This document shows positions 7,702 to 17,733 of a DNA stretch of 64,000 nucleotides, in pieces (the first letter of the stretch is position 1; each line of letters opens with the position of its first letter). Source of the DNA: Thermocrinis ruber (GTDB lineage: Bacteria > Aquificota > Aquificia > Aquificales > Aquificaceae); NCBI RefSeq assembly GCF_000512735.1, contig NZ_CP007028.1, positions 496,001 to 560,000 of the forward strand, read 5' to 3'. Made by a program: the position numbers and the translations under genes. The notes beneath the pieces are model-generated. The model was not told where the DNA came from, did no database searches, and saw nothing but the letters and a program-made list of their open reading frames with translations.

Positions 7702-8541
7702 ATGCGTTTTGCCAAGCTTCAGGGTTCGGGCAATGACTTTGTGGTCATAGACAACAGAGATGGAAAAGTTGAAGAGTTTTTAAGGTCTTTGAACCTTGAT
7801 ATTAAAGAGTTTGTAAAAAAGGTTTGTGCCTTTCATACGGGAGTTGGGGCAGATGGGCTAATACTGATAGAGAACCCGGAGAATCCAGAGAACCACTTTA
7901 AGTGGCAATTTTTCAACTCGGACGGGTCTGTGGCAGAAATGTGCGGTAATGGTTCTCGCTGTGCGGTTAGGTTTGCCTTTGATGAGGGGATAGTGGGCAA
8001 AGAGGTGCGCTTTGAAACCTTGGCGGGGGTTATAAGGGCTTACGTTCTGGACGGTGGAAAGAGAATAAAGGTCCAGCTTACACCACCTAAAGATTACAGA
8101 GAGGTCTCCTTGAGCTTGGACACACAGAGTATAGAAGGATACTTTATAAACACGGGCGTGCCACACTTTGTGGCAGTAGTAAACGACCTTGAAAAAATTG
8201 ATGTGATAAAGCTTGGCAGGGCAATAAGGTTCCATCCTGAGTTCCAACCTAAGGGTACAAACGTGAATTTTATAGAGCGGGAAGGAGATGATGCCATAAG
8301 AATAAGAACATACGAAAGGGGCGTGGAGGGAGAGACCTTAGCCTGCGGGACAGGTGCCACCGCCTCCGCCATAGTAGCCTACAAAAAGGGTATTGTCTCA
8401 AAGAAACCCGTGCGAGTTCTAACCAAAGGTGGAGAGGTCCTTGCCATAGACTTTGACAACGATTTCAGGGAAGTTTTCCTTGAAGGTGGGGTTGTCAGAG
8501 TCTTTGATGGCTTTTTGAGGAGAGAACTCTTTGAATGTTAA
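7702..8541 (+). CDS. dapF: Diaminopimelate epimerase
   Basis: Converts LL- to meso-diaminopimelate for lysine and peptidoglycan. FAKLQGSGNDFVVID at the N-terminus, MCGNGSRCAVRFA (first catalytic cysteine) and ETLACGTGATASA (second catalytic cysteine) are diagnostic. Length is 279 aa, as usual. TAAAAT (7690-7695) ends 6 bases before ATG with no Shine-Dalgarno, predicting a leaderless transcript. The last 7 bp overlap the GGDEF gene. Confidence 0.95.
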   Translation: MRFAKLQGSGNDFVVIDNRDGKVEEFLRSLNLDIKEFVKKVCAFHTGVGADGLILIENPENPENHFKWQFFNSDGSVAEMCGNGSRCAVRFAFDEGIVGKEVRFETLAGVIRAYVLDGGKRIKVQLTPPKDYREVSLSLDTQSIEGYFINTGVPHFVAVVNDLEKIDVIKLGRAIRFHPEFQPKGTNVNFIEREGDDAIRIRTYERGVEGETLACGTGATASAIVAYKKGIVSKKPVRVLTKGGEVLAIDFDNDFREVFLEGGVVRVFDGFLRRELFEC

Positions 8542-9998
8542 AAAGAAGGGTCTTACTCAGGATAATTGTATCTTTTTTAATAACCTTTTTACCCACAGTA
8601 GCCTTTCTTTTCTTTATTTTTCAAAGAATAAGCCAACACAGCTTAATCAAGGAAAGGGACTTTCTGTATAACAACCTAAACAGTTTGCTTGAGCATAAGC
8701 TTAAGGATCTTGAACTTGTTAGCGCTTTGCCAAAGCCACCAGAGAATAAATACTACATAGCCTTTAGGATTAATGGCAACTGCACTGGCGGACCTTACTA
8801 TTGGCTCACCACCGATTCAATTTATTACGGGAAAAATACTTCAATAGGCAACGAATGCTGGTTTTTGGGAGTAAATTTTGTGGAATTGTTGGAGGTAATA
8901 AGGAAGTTTAATAGTGTAGAGTGGGTAATTTTGTACAACAGGTACTATGTAGAAGAACTTCCTAAGGAATTTTTGGACAGATTTGTAAAAGGCAAGATAT
9001 TCAAGGATAACTATGTCATCGCGGGCATGTCAAAACAGGATGTTTTAGATGTTCCCCTTGATACAAGGGGCTATGCGGTGTATGGTAAGTTATGGAACAA
9101 AAACTTGGTGGTAGAGTTCCCTCTCTCGGATAGGAAAGGATTTCCTATGGGAAAGGTGCTTTTTATAAAGGATGTCTCCCAAATATACATAAGTTTCTAT
9201 GTGCTTATGGGTATTCTTAGTGTTTATTCTTTTGCACTTTCCCTTTTGTCTTTTCTACTCCTCTATTTATTCTCTGAAAATTTGGTGAACAGAATAGTAA
9301 AGCTTCAGAAGTTATCCAGCGGGATCAAAGAGGGGAATTTTTCAGGAATTGAGCTTTTGAAGACTGACAAGCCGAAGGATGAGCTTGACCATTTAAGGAA
9401 TAACTTAGTGGATACAGCCCTTACCATAGGTAGGTTGCTTTCGGAGCTTGAGGAGAAAAACAGAGAGCTTCAGGAACTGGCTTATTACGATCCACTCACC
9501 GGTTTGCCAAACAGAAGGTTTTTCTTTGAACACGCAAGCCTTATCTTTGAAGAGGTAAAGAGATACGAAAAACCCCTTTCCCTTTTGGTTATGGACATAG
9601 ACCATTTCAAGAAGATCAACGACACCTATGGGCATGATGTTGGAGATTTGGTTTTGAAGACCTTTGCGAGTGTGCTCAGAGGTATAGTAAGAAAATCGGA
9701 CATATGCGCAAGGTTTGGCGGAGAGGAGTTTGTGGTTCTGCTTCCCAACACGGAGTTGGAGGGGGCAAAGGTTTTGGCGGAAAGGATAAGGACAGCAGTT
9801 GCCAAAAACCCGGTAGAGCATGGTTCTATTGTAATCGTATTTACGGTGAGCATAGGCATCTCTCAATACAGGAAGGGTATGCAGAGTATAGATGAGCTTA
9901 TAAAGGAGGCGGACATTGCCCTCTATTGGGCAAAGGAGGGAGGAAGAAACAGAGTGGAGGTCTTCATTCCCGATGAAACAGTGGAAGCTCAAACTTAG
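8535..9998 (+). CDS. Membrane-anchored diguanylate cyclase (GGDEF)
   Basis: 487-aa signalling protein predicted to make cyclic di-GMP. An N-terminal membrane helix (about 8-28), an extracytoplasmic region of about 190 residues with no recognised sensor fold, a second hydrophobic stretch (about 220-250), a HAMP-like linker and a C-terminal GGDEF domain (about 315-480) follow in order. YYDPLTGLPNRR, MDIDHFKKINDTYGHDVGD and RFGGEEF are the catalytic landmarks. RKSD five residues before GGEEF is an RxxD inhibitory I-site. No EAL or HD-GYP domain is visible. It overlaps dapF by 7 bp and converges on the next gene with a 35-bp overlap. Confidence 0.9.
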   Translation: MLKRRVLLRIIVSFLITFLPTVAFLFFIFQRISQHSLIKERDFLYNNLNSLLEHKLKDLELVSALPKPPENKYYIAFRINGNCTGGPYYWLTTDSIYYGKNTSIGNECWFLGVNFVELLEVIRKFNSVEWVILYNRYYVEELPKEFLDRFVKGKIFKDNYVIAGMSKQDVLDVPLDTRGYAVYGKLWNKNLVVEFPLSDRKGFPMGKVLFIKDVSQIYISFYVLMGILSVYSFALSLLSFLLLYLFSENLVNRIVKLQKLSSGIKEGNFSGIELLKTDKPKDELDHLRNNLVDTALTIGRLLSELEEKNRELQELAYYDPLTGLPNRRFFFEHASLIFEEVKRYEKPLSLLVMDIDHFKKINDTYGHDVGDLVLKTFASVLRGIVRKSDICARFGGEEFVVLLPNTELEGAKVLAERIRTAVAKNPVEHGSIVIVFTVSIGISQYRKGMQSIDELIKEADIALYWAKEGGRNRVEVFIPDETVEAQT

Positions 9999-11349
9999 GA
10001 TTTCCTAAGCTTCTTAGCATGCCCCTTTTGATAACCTCTATGACCTCCGAGGAAAAGGTCCTATCCTTCTGCTTTATGAAGTGATGGAAAAGCACGCCAC
10101 TGGCTTCTAAGCCCAAACCTCTGTTGTTTAGAAACGCCTTAGCGTCTAAGCCCTTAAGGAAGGGATTAGCTTGGTTTAGTCTTCTTTTGGTTGGTCTTCC
10201 CACAAACTGATAGCCATAGACCTCACCTTCTTTTAGAAATACCTTAATCAAGTACTCTTCGTATTCAAAAACCAAGGATTCTTCCGCATCCTCAAAGAGC
10301 CCTCCACTGCCCGCGGGCACCGAGCGTGTCTTTACCGCGTTGTAATCTACAAGACCTGAGTGCTTTACCTTTAAGCCTGCCATGTTGTAGCCCGCTACCG
10401 CACCACCCTGCTGGGCTGGAGGAAACAGGGCAATCCATCTTTGCCTACCCCAAGCATCAATGCCCGAGCATATGTCCCCGGCTGCATACACATCCGGGTC
10501 TGAGGTTCTTTGATATTCATCCACAAGGATACCACCCACCACCCTACCACGGACCTCATCTATGTGAAGCTTTATGTCTGTGTTGGCAACCAAGTGGGTT
10601 CTCGGTCTAACGCCGGTGGAGAGGATCACCAAATCTGCCCTCAAGAACTTCTTCCTGTCGCTCCCGTTTTGAACTATCTCCACCGCCTCCACCCACCCAT
10701 CCTCTCCATGAATTGCCACAACCTGATGGTTCAGATAAAACTCTATACCCTCCTCCCTCTGCAGGACTTCCATGTACCTGTGCGCCATGTATTTGTCCAA
10801 CATCCTAGGAAGAACTCGGTCAAAGAACTCCACCACTGCAACTTCTAAACCCATGCTTCTTAGCGTCTCCGCATCCTCTACCCCTATGGGACCAGCTCCC
10901 ACGATCACAACCCTTTTAACCTTTCCAGAGAGCACAAGATCTCTGATCCTTTTGGCATCGTCCAAATTCTTCGCGGTGGTTACACCTCCCAATTCCCTTC
11001 CGGGTATGGGTGGAATAAAGGCGCTGGCACCCGCCGCAAGCAGGCACTTATCGTAGGGAATTTCCTCCCCGCCCTTGACGATCACCACCTTTCTTTTGTT
11101 ATCAATACCCACCACCTCCTTGTTTGGTCTGAAATCCACCTTGTAGCGCTCGTAAAACTCAAAGCCACCCTTGTAAAAGAGGGCAGACTCTGAAATGTCC
11201 CCCCGGATCACATTCTCCATACAGTTGGGTGCGTAGGTAGGGTAAGGTTCATCAGACAGCACAATGATTTCCGAGTCCTGATCCACTTGTCTGAAGGCTT
11301 CTATGGCAGAGGCGGAGGCTGGACCGTTGCCCACTATTACAACTCGCAT
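9964..11349 (-). CDS. NAD(P)/FAD-dependent pyridine nucleotide-disulphide oxidoreductase
   Basis: 461-aa flavoprotein. An N-terminal FAD-binding Rossmann motif (VIVGNGPASASAIEA), LAAGASAFIPPIPG, an NAD-binding motif (VVIVGAGPIGVEDAETL), the TGVRP strand and VYAAGDIC show the two-dinucleotide fold. Residues around 40 read YAPNCMENV, placing a cysteine where NADH oxidases and CoA-disulphide reductases carry their redox cysteine, but a redox role is only inferred. Relatives include NirB-like and ferredoxin/rubredoxin reductases; the electron acceptor is unknown. Its start is 20 bp from the divergent tRNA-Met and its 3' end overlaps the GGDEF gene by 35 bp. Confidence 0.85.
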   Translation of the reverse strand: MRVVIVGNGPASASAIEAFRQVDQDSEIIVLSDEPYPTYAPNCMENVIRGDISESALFYKGGFEFYERYKVDFRPNKEVVGIDNKRKVVIVKGGEEIPYDKCLLAAGASAFIPPIPGRELGGVTTAKNLDDAKRIRDLVLSGKVKRVVIVGAGPIGVEDAETLRSMGLEVAVVEFFDRVLPRMLDKYMAHRYMEVLQREEGIEFYLNHQVVAIHGEDGWVEAVEIVQNGSDRKKFLRADLVILSTGVRPRTHLVANTDIKLHIDEVRGRVVGGILVDEYQRTSDPDVYAAGDICSGIDAWGRQRWIALFPPAQQGGAVAGYNMAGLKVKHSGLVDYNAVKTRSVPAGSGGLFEDAEESLVFEYEEYLIKVFLKEGEVYGYQFVGRPTKRRLNQANPFLKGLDAKAFLNNRGLGLEASGVLFHHFIKQKDRTFSSEVIEVIKRGMLRSLGNPKFELPLFHRE

Positions 11350-11444: not shown

Positions 11445-13163
11445 TTACTCCTCAATCTTAACCTTCCTTTGCATCTGGAACATTCTCAGCACCTCTTCCA
11501 CCGTGGTAGCATCCTCTGGCAGTTTGTCTGCCCTGACAAAGCTAACAGCCCTTGGAAATCGGAGGGCGTATCCGGGACCATCGCCTACCTTCCCGGCAGT
11601 ATGCAAAGGTGAGCGGGTGATCTCGTCCGCAGAGACGGTTATAACATACCTTGGTTCTACCCACACGTCGGGAGTTATAAGAGAATCAACCCTCGCGTGC
11701 CTGTGTTCTAACTTTATGTGGTCTAACATTTCCTTTAGCCTGACCCATTCTTCTTCTGTGAAACCCGAGCCTACCTTAGAGATAGTTTTAAAGGTGTCTG
11801 TGGAAGGGTCATAGACCGCGGTAAGCAGAGCACCTATTCCAAGTTTGCTCCTTGCACCCCTTCCGTAAAAGTAGCCCACGATCACCAGGTCCAAGGTGTC
11901 CGCCAACTGTCCTTTATAGCTCCTCTTTAGCTTTACCCAGTTAAAGTTTCTTGAACCTGCTGTGTATGGCGCATCAAGCCTTTTGCCCATAATACCCTCA
12001 AGTCCTCTAACTATGGCATCCTCAAAGAAATCCTCTACCTCCTTTGCCGAGTCCACGATTTTGAGCTCCGAAAGCTCCAGAGTATTACCGGGAACTATTA
12101 ACTCCTCCAACTTTTTCCTTCTTTCTATGAAGGGCTTGACCGTATAGTCCTCCCCTTCCAAATACAGCAGGTCAAAGCAAAAGAGCTTTAGTGGGTACTC
12201 CTTGGCAAACTCATAAACATCATACTTTCTCTTTCTTTGAATGGTAATCTGAAAGGGATAGAACTCTCCCGTCTGCTCATTAACCGCCAACGCCTCACCC
12301 TCTAAGATAATTTTTTCTATCGGAAGTTCTCCAATGGCAGACTTTATCTCAGGAAACATATCCGTCATGGGCTCCAGATTGCGAGAATAGATATACACCT
12401 CCTTACCCTTTTTGTGGACTTGCAGTCTAAAGCCATCATACTTTGCCTCTATGGCGCACCTTCCAAGCCTTCTGATTAACTCCTCTGCATCTGCAACCCT
12501 CTCCGCCAGAGCCATCCGAACAGGGTATCCGGGCTCTATCTTAAACTCCAAAAGTCCATCCTTTCCTTTTTCCACCAGTGTGCGGGCCACAAGACCAAGG
12601 TCCGAGCACAGATTGTATGCCCTTTCCACTAAATCTTTGTAAGACCTACTTCCCAAGAGCAATGCCAATGCTTCTATGATAGTTGCTGTGCCCACTCCCA
12701 AACGAAGGTTTCCTACAATGATCCTTAGTGCAAACTTTGCCTCAATGCCAGATAATGCTTTAAGAAGGTTTATAAGAAGCATAACCTTATCTAAGGTTCC
12801 CCTTGCCCTGGCTATTGCCATCAGCTCATCATAGACCTGCGAAAGGCTAAGCCCCCTTCCTTCCCTCTTTATGACCTCCATAGCAACCATTCCCACATCA
12901 CCAAATCTTTTATAGATCTGCTGTATTTGGGCTAACCTAATACCCACCGCCTTTGAAAGGGCTTCTAGGGCTAACTTTTCCGAAACTCCAAACTCCAAAC
13001 CTACAAAGGAGGGCACCAATTCTCCCATAGTGAGATAGACAAGCTTTCCAATCTCTTCTTTATCAGCCTTTGAAAAAAGCTCATAAAGTAGCTCGGACAT
13101 TTCAAGCCGGCTGGTGGTCTCCTCAAGCTTCTGAAAGAATTGGGCAACTTCTAAGAATTTCAC
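11445..13163 (-). CDS. lig: ATP-dependent DNA ligase (archaeal/eukaryotic type)
   Basis: 572-aa ligase joining nicked DNA with ATP. An all-helical N-terminal DNA-binding domain (about 1-200) is followed by the nucleotidyltransferase domain with motif I EAKYDGFRLQVH (adenylated lysine near 241), EGEALAV, EGIMGKRLDAPY and WVKLKRSY, then an OB-fold part containing DLVIVGYFYGRG. This is the DNA-ligase-I layout typical of archaea; most bacteria rely on NAD-dependent LigA, but Aquificales are known to carry such an enzyme. The start is GTG (13163); a TAAAAT on the minus strand (13176-13171) ends 7 bases before it. Confidence 0.93.
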   Translation of the reverse strand: MKFLEVAQFFQKLEETTSRLEMSELLYELFSKADKEEIGKLVYLTMGELVPSFVGLEFGVSEKLALEALSKAVGIRLAQIQQIYKRFGDVGMVAMEVIKREGRGLSLSQVYDELMAIARARGTLDKVMLLINLLKALSGIEAKFALRIIVGNLRLGVGTATIIEALALLLGSRSYKDLVERAYNLCSDLGLVARTLVEKGKDGLLEFKIEPGYPVRMALAERVADAEELIRRLGRCAIEAKYDGFRLQVHKKGKEVYIYSRNLEPMTDMFPEIKSAIGELPIEKIILEGEALAVNEQTGEFYPFQITIQRKRKYDVYEFAKEYPLKLFCFDLLYLEGEDYTVKPFIERRKKLEELIVPGNTLELSELKIVDSAKEVEDFFEDAIVRGLEGIMGKRLDAPYTAGSRNFNWVKLKRSYKGQLADTLDLVIVGYFYGRGARSKLGIGALLTAVYDPSTDTFKTISKVGSGFTEEEWVRLKEMLDHIKLEHRHARVDSLITPDVWVEPRYVITVSADEITRSPLHTAGKVGDGPGYALRFPRAVSFVRADKLPEDATTVEEVLRMFQMQRKVKIEE

Positions 13164-13180: not shown

Positions 13181-13627
13181 ATGGACATACTGGAAATAAT
13201 GCAAATCCTCCCCCACAGATATCCCTTACTGCTCGTGGATAGAATTTTGGAGATAGAACTGGGAAAAAGGATAGTAGGATTAAAAAACGTGTCCATAAAC
13301 GAGCCCTACTTTCAAGGGCATTTTCCGGGCTTTCCCCTCATGCCGGGTGTTTACATCCTTGAAGCTTTGGCACAGGTGGGTGGAATTTTGATGATCAAGT
13401 CTTTGAACTTGGAGATCGGCAAATACGCCGTAGTTTTTGCGGGCATAGATGACGCCCGGTTCAAAAAGCCCGTCTATCCGGGTGATCAACTTATCCTTGA
13501 GTTGGAAGCGATCGCCCTCAAAAAGAGCCTTTCAAAGATGAAAGGCACTGCCAAGGTGGATAACCAAGTGGTGGCAGAGGCGATCCTTTATGCGTCCGCA
13601 AGAGAACTTTCACAACTGAAAAAATAG
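13181..13627 (+). CDS. fabZ: 3-hydroxyacyl-ACP dehydratase
   Basis: Hot-dog fold enzyme that dehydrates 3-hydroxyacyl-ACP in fatty acid elongation. [16 protein letters not shown] at the start and [23 protein letters not shown] (catalytic His, and the Glu in LEALAQ) identify it. It is 148 aa, as usual. It opens a plus-strand run and is probably translated from a leaderless mRNA. Confidence 0.95.
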
Positions 13628-13643
13628 TGTTATATTTTTACGT

Positions 13644-14528
13644 ATGGCAGAGTTTGAAGAAAGAGAAGAAATAAGGAGGGAAGAGGTAGAGCCGGACCTT
13701 TCGGCGGTATATACGGGCTCCCAAGCTATAGCAAAAGCTCCGGAGATCTACGGAGTAGCAACCGGCATAGAGGGTTTAGATGACCTCTTTTTCATAGTAA
13801 AGCAGGTAGGCAAAAAGTTGGAAAAGGTCTCCCTAAAAGGCATACCAGCCTATTCTGTTATGAACCTTACGGGGGTTTCCGACACGGGCAAGTCTCTGAT
13901 GGCAGAGCAGTTTACCGTTTTCCGTGCCAGCAGAGGGGATAGAGTTGCCTTTGTAACCGTTGAATCTCCCGCCAATTTTGTGTCTGCATCCCTAAAGCTT
14001 AGGGCAATGGCTATGGGTTTGGACTTTGACCAATTCCAGGATAACATAATCCTCATAGACGCTGCATCCTCCACAAGAATCAGGGAAAATGTGCCAGACC
14101 TTTTGGCAACCTTAGCCTACGTTATAAAGAACTACAAGGTCAAATTTACCGTGATAGACTCTGTGACGGGTTTATTTGAGAACAAGGAGATGATGGCGAG
14201 GGCTGTTGTTAGACGGCTATACAACTTTATGAAAAAGTGGTATCAAACTGCGATCTTCGTGTCTCAAAAGAGAAGCGGTCATGAGGAGCTAACCGCGGAG
14301 GCAGCTGGAGGCTACGCGGTAGGGCATATAGTGGATGGCACAATGGTCTTGGCAAAGGAGCTTATAGACTCTCCCTACAAGGCAAAGATGTATAAAAAGA
14401 GCGTAGGAGATATAGTTAGGCTCTTTAGGATAGATGGGTGTAGAATGTCTGGGCACGATACAAGAACCCACTTCCTTGAGATCACAGAAACAGGCTTGGT
14501 TAGAATAAAAGAACCCATAGGAGGTTAA
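13644..14528 (+). CDS. Archaeal-type KaiC-like RecA-superfamily ATPase
   Basis: 294-aa single KaiC/RadA-type ATPase domain. TGIEGLDDLFF opens the domain, TGVSDTGKSLMAEQF is a Walker A variant (D replaces the first conserved small residue of GxxxxGK), FVTVESPANFV follows, VKFTVIDSVTGLF is Walker B, and IFVSQKRSGHEELTAEAAGGYAVGHIVDGTMVL covers the sensor region. It closely resembles the single-domain KaiC family common in archaea (AF_0351-like), not the double-domain clock KaiC. The family's function is unknown. The following gene is its usual partner, 4 bp downstream. TATATT (13631-13636) ends 7 bases before ATG. About 30 charged residues precede the domain. Confidence 0.85.
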   Translation: MAEFEEREEIRREEVEPDLSAVYTGSQAIAKAPEIYGVATGIEGLDDLFFIVKQVGKKLEKVSLKGIPAYSVMNLTGVSDTGKSLMAEQFTVFRASRGDRVAFVTVESPANFVSASLKLRAMAMGLDFDQFQDNIILIDAASSTRIRENVPDLLATLAYVIKNYKVKFTVIDSVTGLFENKEMMARAVVRRLYNFMKKWYQTAIFVSQKRSGHEELTAEAAGGYAVGHIVDGTMVLAKELIDSPYKAKMYKKSVGDIVRLFRIDGCRMSGHDTRTHFLEITETGLVRIKEPIGG

Positions 14529-14532
14529 AGCC

Positions 14533-15198
14533 ATGGTAATTGAAATCACAGGAGTGCCAACAAGTGAAGCAGGCGCAGACCTTGAACAGCTTGTTACGAG
14601 GGTCTTCTTTAAGGCCATCGACCTTTTGGGTGGTCTGAGCAAGCTTACCGAATTCAGGACTCTTACATGGCTACCCAGCTTGGCAAGGGCAGCCTATGTG
14701 GTGGTTTTGAGGGAGGAATATCTGCGCACCGAGGAGGAGATAGCCCAAAAGGTAGGACTCACCAAAAACACAGTTAGGAGTATTCTAAGGGCAGACCCAA
14801 CCTTGGCAATGGAAAAAATTCAAAAGCTTGAGGAGTTGGCAAAGGAAGAGCTGAAGGAGATGAAGGTGCATACCGCGGGAGGTATTGCAAAGCTTGCCTA
14901 CAAGATGGTTAAGGAGGGCAACGAGGCTGAAATCCTCAGCCACTTTTGCACCGTTGTGGCAGAAGAGGTGGCAAGAGCCCTTGACATTCCTTGGGCTTAT
15001 GCGGTGCTGAAGCACCTAAGGGGCGTGAAGTTTCCCATTCAAGATAGCCAAGTGCTAAAGGAAAGGCTAAAGGGTGTAAAGATAAAAACCTATCCCGCTG
15101 AGGAGGTGGTGGATAAACTTCCATACCCAATAAGAACACCAGCAGTTCTGTTGCACGAGATAAAGCTTGCAATTTCTGCACTTGAGGAACAGAAGTAA
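14533..15198 (+). CDS. KaiC-partner regulatory protein with HTH
   Basis: 221-aa protein resembling the probable regulatory proteins found beside archaeal KaiC-like genes (TIGR03879-type near-KaiC domain). RTEEEIAQKVGLTKNTVRSI (about 62-82) reads as a helix-turn-helix, after an N-terminal region LEQLVTRVFFKAIDLLGG. The C-terminal half is mostly helical with no motif I can name. A good GGAGGTTAAAG ribosome site sits in the 4-bp gap and upstream codons, so translation is coupled to the ATPase. A role in sensing or transcription control is inferred from context. Confidence 0.7.
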   Translation: MVIEITGVPTSEAGADLEQLVTRVFFKAIDLLGGLSKLTEFRTLTWLPSLARAAYVVVLREEYLRTEEEIAQKVGLTKNTVRSILRADPTLAMEKIQKLEELAKEELKEMKVHTAGGIAKLAYKMVKEGNEAEILSHFCTVVAEEVARALDIPWAYAVLKHLRGVKFPIQDSQVLKERLKGVKIKTYPAEEVVDKLPYPIRTPAVLLHEIKLAISALEEQK

Positions 15199-15205
15199 TT
15201 TATAA

Positions 15206-16212
<1,007 letters not shown>

Positions 16213-16213
<1 letters not shown>

Positions 16214-17733
16214 TGTTCTGCCGAATAAGGAGCGGAGGGGTTATTGGTATTGACGGTTTTTTGGTGGATGTAGAAATAGACTTCTCTCCAGGGCTTCCTC
16301 AGTTTAACATAGTGGGACTACCAGACAAAGCCATAAACGAGGCAAAGGACAGGGTTAGGTCTGCCTTAAAGAACGTGGGCTTTCAACTGCCTTCCAAAAG
16401 GATCACCGTAAATTTGGCACCCTCCCACCTGAAAAAGCAGGGAACTTTATACGACCTTCCCATTGCGGTGGGTATTTTAAAGCTATCGGGAGTTTTGGAT
16501 GTGGACGAGGAGACGGTCTTTCTGGGAGAGCTCTCTTTGGACGGAAAGGTAAATCCGGTCAGTGGCGTCCTTCCCATTGTTTTATCCTTAAAGGAGAAGG
16601 GCTTTAGAAGGTTTGTGGTGCCAAAGGCGAACGCAAAAGAGGGTGCCATCGTTCAAGGTGCAGAGGTTTACGGTGTTGAGTCCTTAAACCAGCTCATAGC
16701 CTTTTTGAGAGGAGAGAAGGAGTTAAAGCCAGAGGAGGTGGACCTTAACGAGCTCTTTTCAAAAGCCTTTGATTACAGCATAGACCTTGCGGACGTAAAA
16801 GGACAGTATGAGGCAAAAAAGGCTCTGGAGATCTCCGCAGCGGGCATGCACAACTTACTGCTGATCGGTCCTCCGGGGGCAGGAAAAAGCATGCTCGCCA
16901 AAAGGATCGTAACCATCTTGCCTCCTCTGTCTTTGGAGGAAGCCTTAGAGGTTAGCAAAATATACAGCGTGGCGGGTATGCTCAAGGAGCCTCTGATGGT
17001 TCAAAGACCCTTCCGGGCACCTCATTACACAGCCTCAGAGGTGGCGTTGATAGGTGGCGGTAGCAATCCAACGCCCGGGGAGATCTCCTTAGCCCACCGG
17101 GGAGTGCTCTTTTTGGACGAAATGGTGGAGTTTAACCGTAAAACCTTGGAAGCCCTCAGGCAACCCATAGAGGACGGCTACGTTAGCATATCAAGGGTGG
17201 GTGGCAGGGTAACCTTTCCCTCCAACTTCATCTTGGTGGGTGCCACAAACCCATGCCCCTGTGGAAACTACCGAAATCCCTACAAGGCATGCGTATGTTC
17301 TCCTGCCCAAATAAGGGCTTATCAGTCCAAGCTCTCGGGACCCATCTTAGACCGTATAGACCTAAAGGTATGGGTGGAGCCAGTGGAGGTCCAAGAACTG
17401 GTAAATCCAAGCCCGGGCGAGAGCTCCAAAGAGGTCAGGGAGAGGGTTATGAGGGCATACCAAATTCAGAGGGAGAGGTTTAAAAACTCCAGGACCAAGT
17501 TCAACGGACAGATGACAGAAAAGGAGATAGAAAAGTACTGCATCTTAACGCCAAAGGCAAAGGAACTTTTGGAGAGGGCTATGGACAAGTTTCATTTGAG
17601 CGGAAGGTCTTACGCAAGGCTTTTAAAGGTTTCAAGAACCATCGCAGACTTGGAGGGGGAAGAGCAAATAAAGGAACATCACATAGCACAGGCAATCCAG
17701 TATAGAATTGAGGACAAGCTTGAAAGCATGTAA
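16213..17733 (+). CDS. comM: YifB/ComM family Mg-chelatase-like AAA+ ATPase
   Basis: 506-aa protein with an N-terminal Lon-protease-like (ChlI) domain (DFSPGLPQFNIVGLPDKAINEAKDRVRSAL; no proteolysis implied), a central AAA+ domain with Walker A GPPGAGKSMLAKR near 222 and Walker B GVLFLDEM, a Cys cluster NPCPCGNYRNPYKACVC, and a C-terminal helical domain. In Vibrio and Haemophilus ComM acts as a branch-migration helicase in natural transformation; that role is inferred here. Its ATG overlaps the gapA stop by one base. Confidence 0.92.

Follow-up and report, generated by a model that had tools for sequence, protein, structure and literature searches.

Both protein families treated here, and also their pairing, are already catalogued in NCBIfam. 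TIGR03878 (thermo_KaiC_2) is listed there with the type 'hypoth_equivalog', and TIGR03879 (near_KaiC_dom) as a probable regulatory domain. Cyanobacterial KaiC shares the ATPase fold and the nucleotide-binding motifs with the ATPase analyzed here, but it is a double-domain protein, whereas the latter consists of one domain with 294 aa. Pyrococcus PH0284 (2dr3), which we take to be a member of the sister family TIGR03877, is the best fold match of this ATPase, yet only ~25% identical to it. The KaiC-domain protein PF1931 of Pyrococcus furiosus and the predicted regulator PF1932 presumably represent the same sister family and its partner, and not TIGR03878. Both belong to the additional heat-shock (Phr) targets and are strongly induced (PMC10746257). 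SSO2452 / RadC1, an archaeal RadA paralogue, is a single-domain RecA/KaiC-type ATPase as well and matches the ATPase described here with an E-value of 3e-9. This match is much weaker than the one to TIGR03878, and the SSO2452 literature consulted describes no near-KaiC partner.

Sequence features and predicted structures of the two proteins

The gene pair is located in a stretch of 64,000 nucleotides of the Thermocrinis ruber genome (NZ_CP007028.1, positions 496,001 to 560,000), here called the window, to which coordinates refer unless stated otherwise. The genome is a complete Aquificota chromosome of 1.52 Mb with a completeness of 100. The first gene (13644..14528, + strand) encodes the single-domain KaiC-like ATPase. 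The protein is a full-length member of TIGR03878 (452.2 bits, cut-off 232.2; model positions 1-258 of 259) with nothing excluding membership, and it also matches the Pfam KaiC family PF06745 with 180 bits. At about twice the cut-off, the assignment made in the initial annotation holds. The second gene (14533..15198, + strand) encodes the helix-turn-helix (HTH) partner of 221 aa. An HMM search found the entire near-KaiC domain TIGR03879 (124.8 bits, cut-off 65.1) at residues 30-129, followed by an additional C-terminal region of ~90 residues. The proposed partnership of the adjoining genes was confirmed. The AlphaFold2 models reached a pLDDT of 90.7 for the ATPase and 90.9 for the all-helical partner.

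The spacing of 4 bp between the genes could also be verified, from the end of the ATPase stop codon (14528) to the ATG of the partner (14533). The Shine-Dalgarno sequence of the partner, GGAGG (14520..14524, + strand, read directly), is located within the last codons of the ATPase gene; therefore, translation of both genes is probably coupled. No Shine-Dalgarno sequence was found in front of the ATPase ATG. A consensus scan revealed a promoter-like site just 5' of the ATPase start (TTCACA - 16 - TATATT with a TG before the -10 element; 13609..13636, + strand), which is weak and no evidence of function; the scan returned 6 sites vs 2.6 expected in shuffled sequences.

All 43 relatives of the ATPase that were compared have intact Walker A and Walker B motifs and an intact E107. 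Within Walker A (GVSDTGKS, residues 77-84; 13872..13895, + strand) the residues D80, T81, G82 and K83 are invariant. E107 (13962..13964, + strand), an invariant acidic residue after the next strand, is presumably the candidate for the catalytic glutamate, judged from what is known of the KaiC/RecA family. The Walker B strand (14145..14162, + strand), placed by conservation and the AlphaFold2 model, ends with the invariant residues D172-S173. A further invariant stretch starts with Q208 and covers residues 208-223, QKRSGHEELTAEAAGG (14265..14312, + strand). It forms a loop which is invariant yet flexible, with a pLDDT of 53 for residues 211-220 vs more than 90 in the core, and in the model it appears to be placed like loop L2 of RecA/Rad51 or the channel loop of KaiC. 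The C-terminal motif IDGCRMSGHD (14430..14459, + strand) contains the invariant residues I263, D264, G265, C266, R267, G270 and H271. In the PDB, PH0284 was the top fold match (E 4e-17) and KaiC the second. An identity as RadA/RecA recombinase, which had been named as a result that would speak against the annotation, was rejected: the models for RadA and RadB gave 23.1 bits (cut-off 259) and 23.7 bits (cut-off 172), and the ATPase does not group with these proteins. A KaiABC circadian clock was considered and rejected as well, given the single domain of the ATPase and, at this locus, the absence of kaiA and kaiB beside the gene, whose neighbours are fabZ and gapA. The phosphosites S431/T432 of KaiC are presumably absent from the ATPase.

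The near-KaiC domain of the partner (14620..14919, + strand), defined by profile match and alignment, contains the conserved motif HTAGGIAKLAY, and all 50 aligned relatives of the partner match TIGR03879. It includes a helix-turn-helix with helices at residues 67-74 and 78-86 (14731..14790, + strand), recognized by its likeness to sigma-70 region 4, ParB and HTH_23; single scores are weak, and HTH_23 is matched in 34 of the 50 members. Neither a sequence search nor a full-length fold match in the PDB detected a solved relative of the partner, the resemblance to sigma region 4, ParB and others being confined to the HTH. The C-terminal helical region (residues 133-220; 14929..15192, + strand), seen in the AlphaFold2 model and the alignment, shows sub-threshold likeness to DUF2795/MTH865 in some relatives and is missing from the short partners (~125 aa) of some lineages, including Thermomicrobium. 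Such short partners were found at L049-L056, L061, L070, L073, L098, L116 and L121, and most of their host genomes are without reverse gyrase. A link of the C-terminal region to reverse gyrase was tested and does not stand (raw Fisher p = 3e-4), because it relies on few independent changes on the tree (4 changes, 2 independent pairs).

Distribution of the pair and association with reverse gyrase

TIGR03878 was identified in 116 and TIGR03879 in 118 of 136 Aquificota genomes, and 124 contain at least one of both genes. The pair is core in this phylum. Conservation of both genes throughout the phylum places their occurrence in the window far beyond chance. In a scan of named genomes, relatives were found in Thermomicrobia, Bipolaricaulota, Aminicenantes, WOR-3, Thermotogota, Acidobacteriota, Armatimonadota, Calditrichota, Kapabacteria, Thermodesulfobacteriota, Nautiliaceae and DPANN archaea; individual phylum assignments may be wrong, because many of the records are metagenome bins. 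Among 14 control genomes, four of them archaeal, TIGR03878 was detected at E <= 1e-60 in Thermus composti only, and in none of the four archaea. The presence in bacteria and the absence from the archaeal controls indicate that the family is not archaeal in type. TIGR03879 was found in T. composti, Thermotoga maritima, Methanocaldococcus jannaschii, Sulfolobus acidocaldarius and Lactococcus lactis, above the cut-off in three of the five. The pair is common to thermophilic bacteria and some archaea. A plasmid location was observed only for the megaplasmid of Thermomicrobium roseum, and scans of IMG/VR confirmed no virus-borne copy.

Across phyla, the partner is the sole widely conserved neighbour of the ATPase gene, nearly always directly downstream and sometimes overlapping. 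The initial annotation had also pointed to a ligase gene nearby and to gapA-comM downstream. Both are present in the window, the ATP-dependent DNA ligase (TIGR00574, 436 bits) upstream of the pair on the opposite strand at 11445-13163, divergent from fabZ, and gapA-comM at 15215-17733, but this proximity is not conserved: ligase, fabZ, gapA and comM were not found as conserved neighbours at the other loci compared. Adjacency of the two genes themselves differs between Aquificota families, with 32/33 in family f2, 9/48 in the window's own family f1, 0/6 in f3 and 0/19 in f5. In Aquificota genomes of at least 95% completeness, both genes occur in 72, neither in 3, the partner alone in 2 and the ATPase alone in none (p = 1e-4). 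This co-inheritance without physical linkage argues for a joint function. One genome (G044, 99% complete) carries a divergent near-KaiC gene (93 bits) and reverse gyrase, and is without a TIGR03878 ATPase.

Among the marker genes of hyperthermophiles, i.e., of organisms living at very high temperature, reverse gyrase is the best known. Where it is present, the pair tends to be present too, and the two tend to disappear jointly. Among Aquificota genomes of at least 99% completeness, 60 combine reverse gyrase with one or both genes of the pair, two have neither, and no genome is mixed (p = 5e-4; this and the following p values for reverse gyrase ignore shared ancestry). The two genomes without both, G033 and G078, belong to different families. 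Exceptions in both directions occur among less complete Aquificota, e.g., G113 with reverse gyrase and without the pair. In a WOR-3-type phylum with 147 genomes, 23 carry both and 110 are without either, while the pair occurs alone in 8 and reverse gyrase alone in 6 (p = 6e-15). Similarly, in a DPANN-type archaeal phylum with 34 genomes, reverse gyrase is present in 5/5 genomes with the pair vs 2/29 of the others (p = 8e-5). Four of the 14 controls contain reverse gyrase (T. composti, T. maritima, M. jannaschii and S. acidocaldarius). Thermomicrobium and others carry the pair without reverse gyrase, and a few genomes show the opposite; from Thermomicrobium it follows that the pair does not require reverse gyrase. 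This co-occurrence is confounded by a shared thermophilic lifestyle, as the pair and reverse gyrase could go together simply as two marks of very hot habitats.

The genes are also linked locally in some genomes, while in the window genome reverse gyrase is located ~730 kb from the pair. Genus g18 (Hydrogenothermaceae) provides 11 genomes in which ATPase, partner and reverse gyrase follow each other in this order on one strand. Between the stop codon of near-KaiC and the start of reverse gyrase there are 52-64 bp (L035, L039, L040, L063, L072, L078, L080). A conserved intrinsic terminator (GCGGGC...GCCCGC and a T run) separates the two genes in this genus, with little room left for a promoter. 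Such an arrangement would fit read-through into, or attenuation of, reverse gyrase. In G077 (genus g16, Hydrogenothermaceae), reverse gyrase and the ATPase gene are transcribed away from each other. At L026 and L120, the divergent reverse gyrase and KaiC-like genes have a very short common intergenic region. G078, from the same genus as G077, is without ATPase, partner and reverse gyrase.

Possible functions of the pair

As far as can be read from the sequences, an ATP-dependent regulatory role is compatible with both proteins, and energy sensing, as put forward in the initial annotation, may be part of it. We tentatively favour, as plausible but short of probable, an ATP-driven, DNA-bound switch for genome upkeep or heat adaptation. 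The two genes would function as a unit, in which a KaiC-like ATPase with RecA fold cooperates with an HTH protein. The partner would place the complex on DNA by its HTH, the ATPase would assemble into oligomers on this complex and use ATP, and the flexible invariant L2-like loop may touch the DNA. Acting as a switch at high temperature, the complex would serve the upkeep of DNA or the control of gene expression and share a physiological module with reverse gyrase. This proposal starts from the identity, conservation, adjacency and co-inheritance of the genes, their transfer as a cassette, the predicted folds, and the finding that reverse gyrase often accompanies the pair and in some genomes lies next to it. 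It predicts that the ATPase is active, that the two proteins form a complex and bind DNA, and that they directly control reverse gyrase or work with it. The heat-shock induction of PF1931 and PF1932 is in favour of it as well, although these presumably represent the sister family. Against it, some genomes have the pair or reverse gyrase alone, the two loci are far apart in the window genome, a terminator separates them in g18, and both could simply mark very hot habitats.

Somewhat unlikely, in our view, is a plain transcription regulator, in which the ATPase would sense ATP/ADP or another signal and switch the HTH partner at promoters, the tie to reverse gyrase reflecting heat only. The resemblance of the partner HTH to sigma-70 region 4 and the occurrence of the pair in Thermomicrobium without reverse gyrase are in favour of this explanation. 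Furthermore, a proposal of archaeal KaiC-like proteins as signalling hubs is summarized in PMC5847659, and the Haloferax proteins CirA/CirD work together with the regulator CsmR (PMC13286277). However, it leaves the adjacency to reverse gyrase in two genera and the invariant L2-like loop unexplained, and a sensor domain is missing.

The switch that we favour could also be narrower, a dedicated partner of reverse gyrase which would regulate or direct positive supercoiling in cells at very high temperature. If true, this would explain joint retention, joint loss and occasional clustering of the genes in bacteria and archaea, but we consider such a dedication doubtful. Rather improbable is an accessory role in repair or recombination, in which a RadA-paralogue-like ATPase would load on single-stranded DNA and modulate recombination with the partner as DNA-binding adaptor. 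The RecA fold, the invariant Q208 and the flexible L2-like loop would suit this role, and SSO2452, a KaiC/RadA-type single-domain protein, is reported to bind single-stranded DNA and to be anti-recombinogenic (PMC8708640). Against it, PH0284 and KaiC come closer than RadA/RadC in both family and fold, and no repair gene is found among the conserved neighbours.

Origin of the window copies and significance

In the ATPase tree (59 rows), the window copy is sister to that of G103 of family f2 (97/83), nested in the group of f2-type copies, whereas the congener G051 has retained an ATPase typical of the family. When the window-type ATPases are constrained to group within their own family, the log-likelihood drops by 140 units (AU p = 0.001). 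The partner tree agrees: the window partner groups with Hydrogenothermaceae (98/86), and a grouping with its own family is rejected (AU p = 4e-5). A second, orphan near-KaiC gene was found in the window genome outside the window, near 396,330 of contig G000:C1 (L002, 1231-1845, - strand; L203, 4561-5175, - strand), between rpsA and a gene for a protein of 1130 residues. The only near-KaiC gene of G051 is located at exactly the same rpsA site, likewise the copies in G010, G052, G056 and G057. Because of this synteny, the orphan can be regarded as the native copy. With a dN/dS of 0.135 (G000 vs G056), compared with 0.093 for the window partner, it looks diverged but still under purifying selection.

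Both trees and the orphaned native partner indicate that the two genes were transferred together, as one cassette, from bacterium to bacterium. The simplest account would be that it arrived as a unit, that the native ATPase was lost and that the native partner was orphaned; the donor was probably a Hydrogenothermaceae-like bacterium and the recipient the window genome or its recent ancestor. Genes for a GGDEF protein and a FAD oxidoreductase, located upstream of the window ATPase (8535-11349), precede the native ATPase in other Aquificaceae as well (L202, L104, L105, L117, L079), and these shared surroundings make an in-place replacement of the native ATPase possible. Copies assigned to Kapabacteria, Nautiliaceae and Thermodesulfobacteriota (L106, L125, L115, L129) are placed within the Hydrogenothermaceae-type group or close to it in at least one of the two trees; either the pair crossed phylum borders in further cases, or these records were wrongly binned. 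That the pair moves as a cassette speaks for a joint action of its two proteins. The evidence from the congener and the orphan itself speaks to history, not function.

An acquisition from archaea, suggested in the initial annotation together with a phylogeny of both proteins as the way to check it, is not supported by these trees, which nest both window copies among bacterial Hydrogenothermaceae. Although KaiC-like proteins are diverse in archaea and DPANN archaea carry the pair, transfer of an archaeal signalling pair into this bacterium, a claim about origin, is most improbable: the pair belongs to the core of Aquificota and is spread widely among bacteria, TIGR03878 is absent from all four archaeal controls, and the archaeal copies sampled, all from DPANN with Archaeoglobi, Thermoproteota and Thermococci left out for TIGR03878, form their own clade away from Aquificota. 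An ancient exchange of the family between archaea and bacteria may have taken place.

In the literature searched, no earlier statement ties the pair to reverse gyrase; KaiC and reverse gyrase are named together there, unlinked. Novelty may lie in the replacement by a cassette within Aquificales and in the association of the pair with reverse gyrase. The reading as an archaeal import is corrected to that of a pair travelling as a cassette between bacteria. Cellular control of reverse gyrase is poorly understood, and the pair offers a concrete candidate that could be tested in an amenable thermophile: a small, widespread two-gene unit, co-inherited with reverse gyrase, adjoining it in some bacteria, and with an archaeal counterpart that is induced by heat shock.
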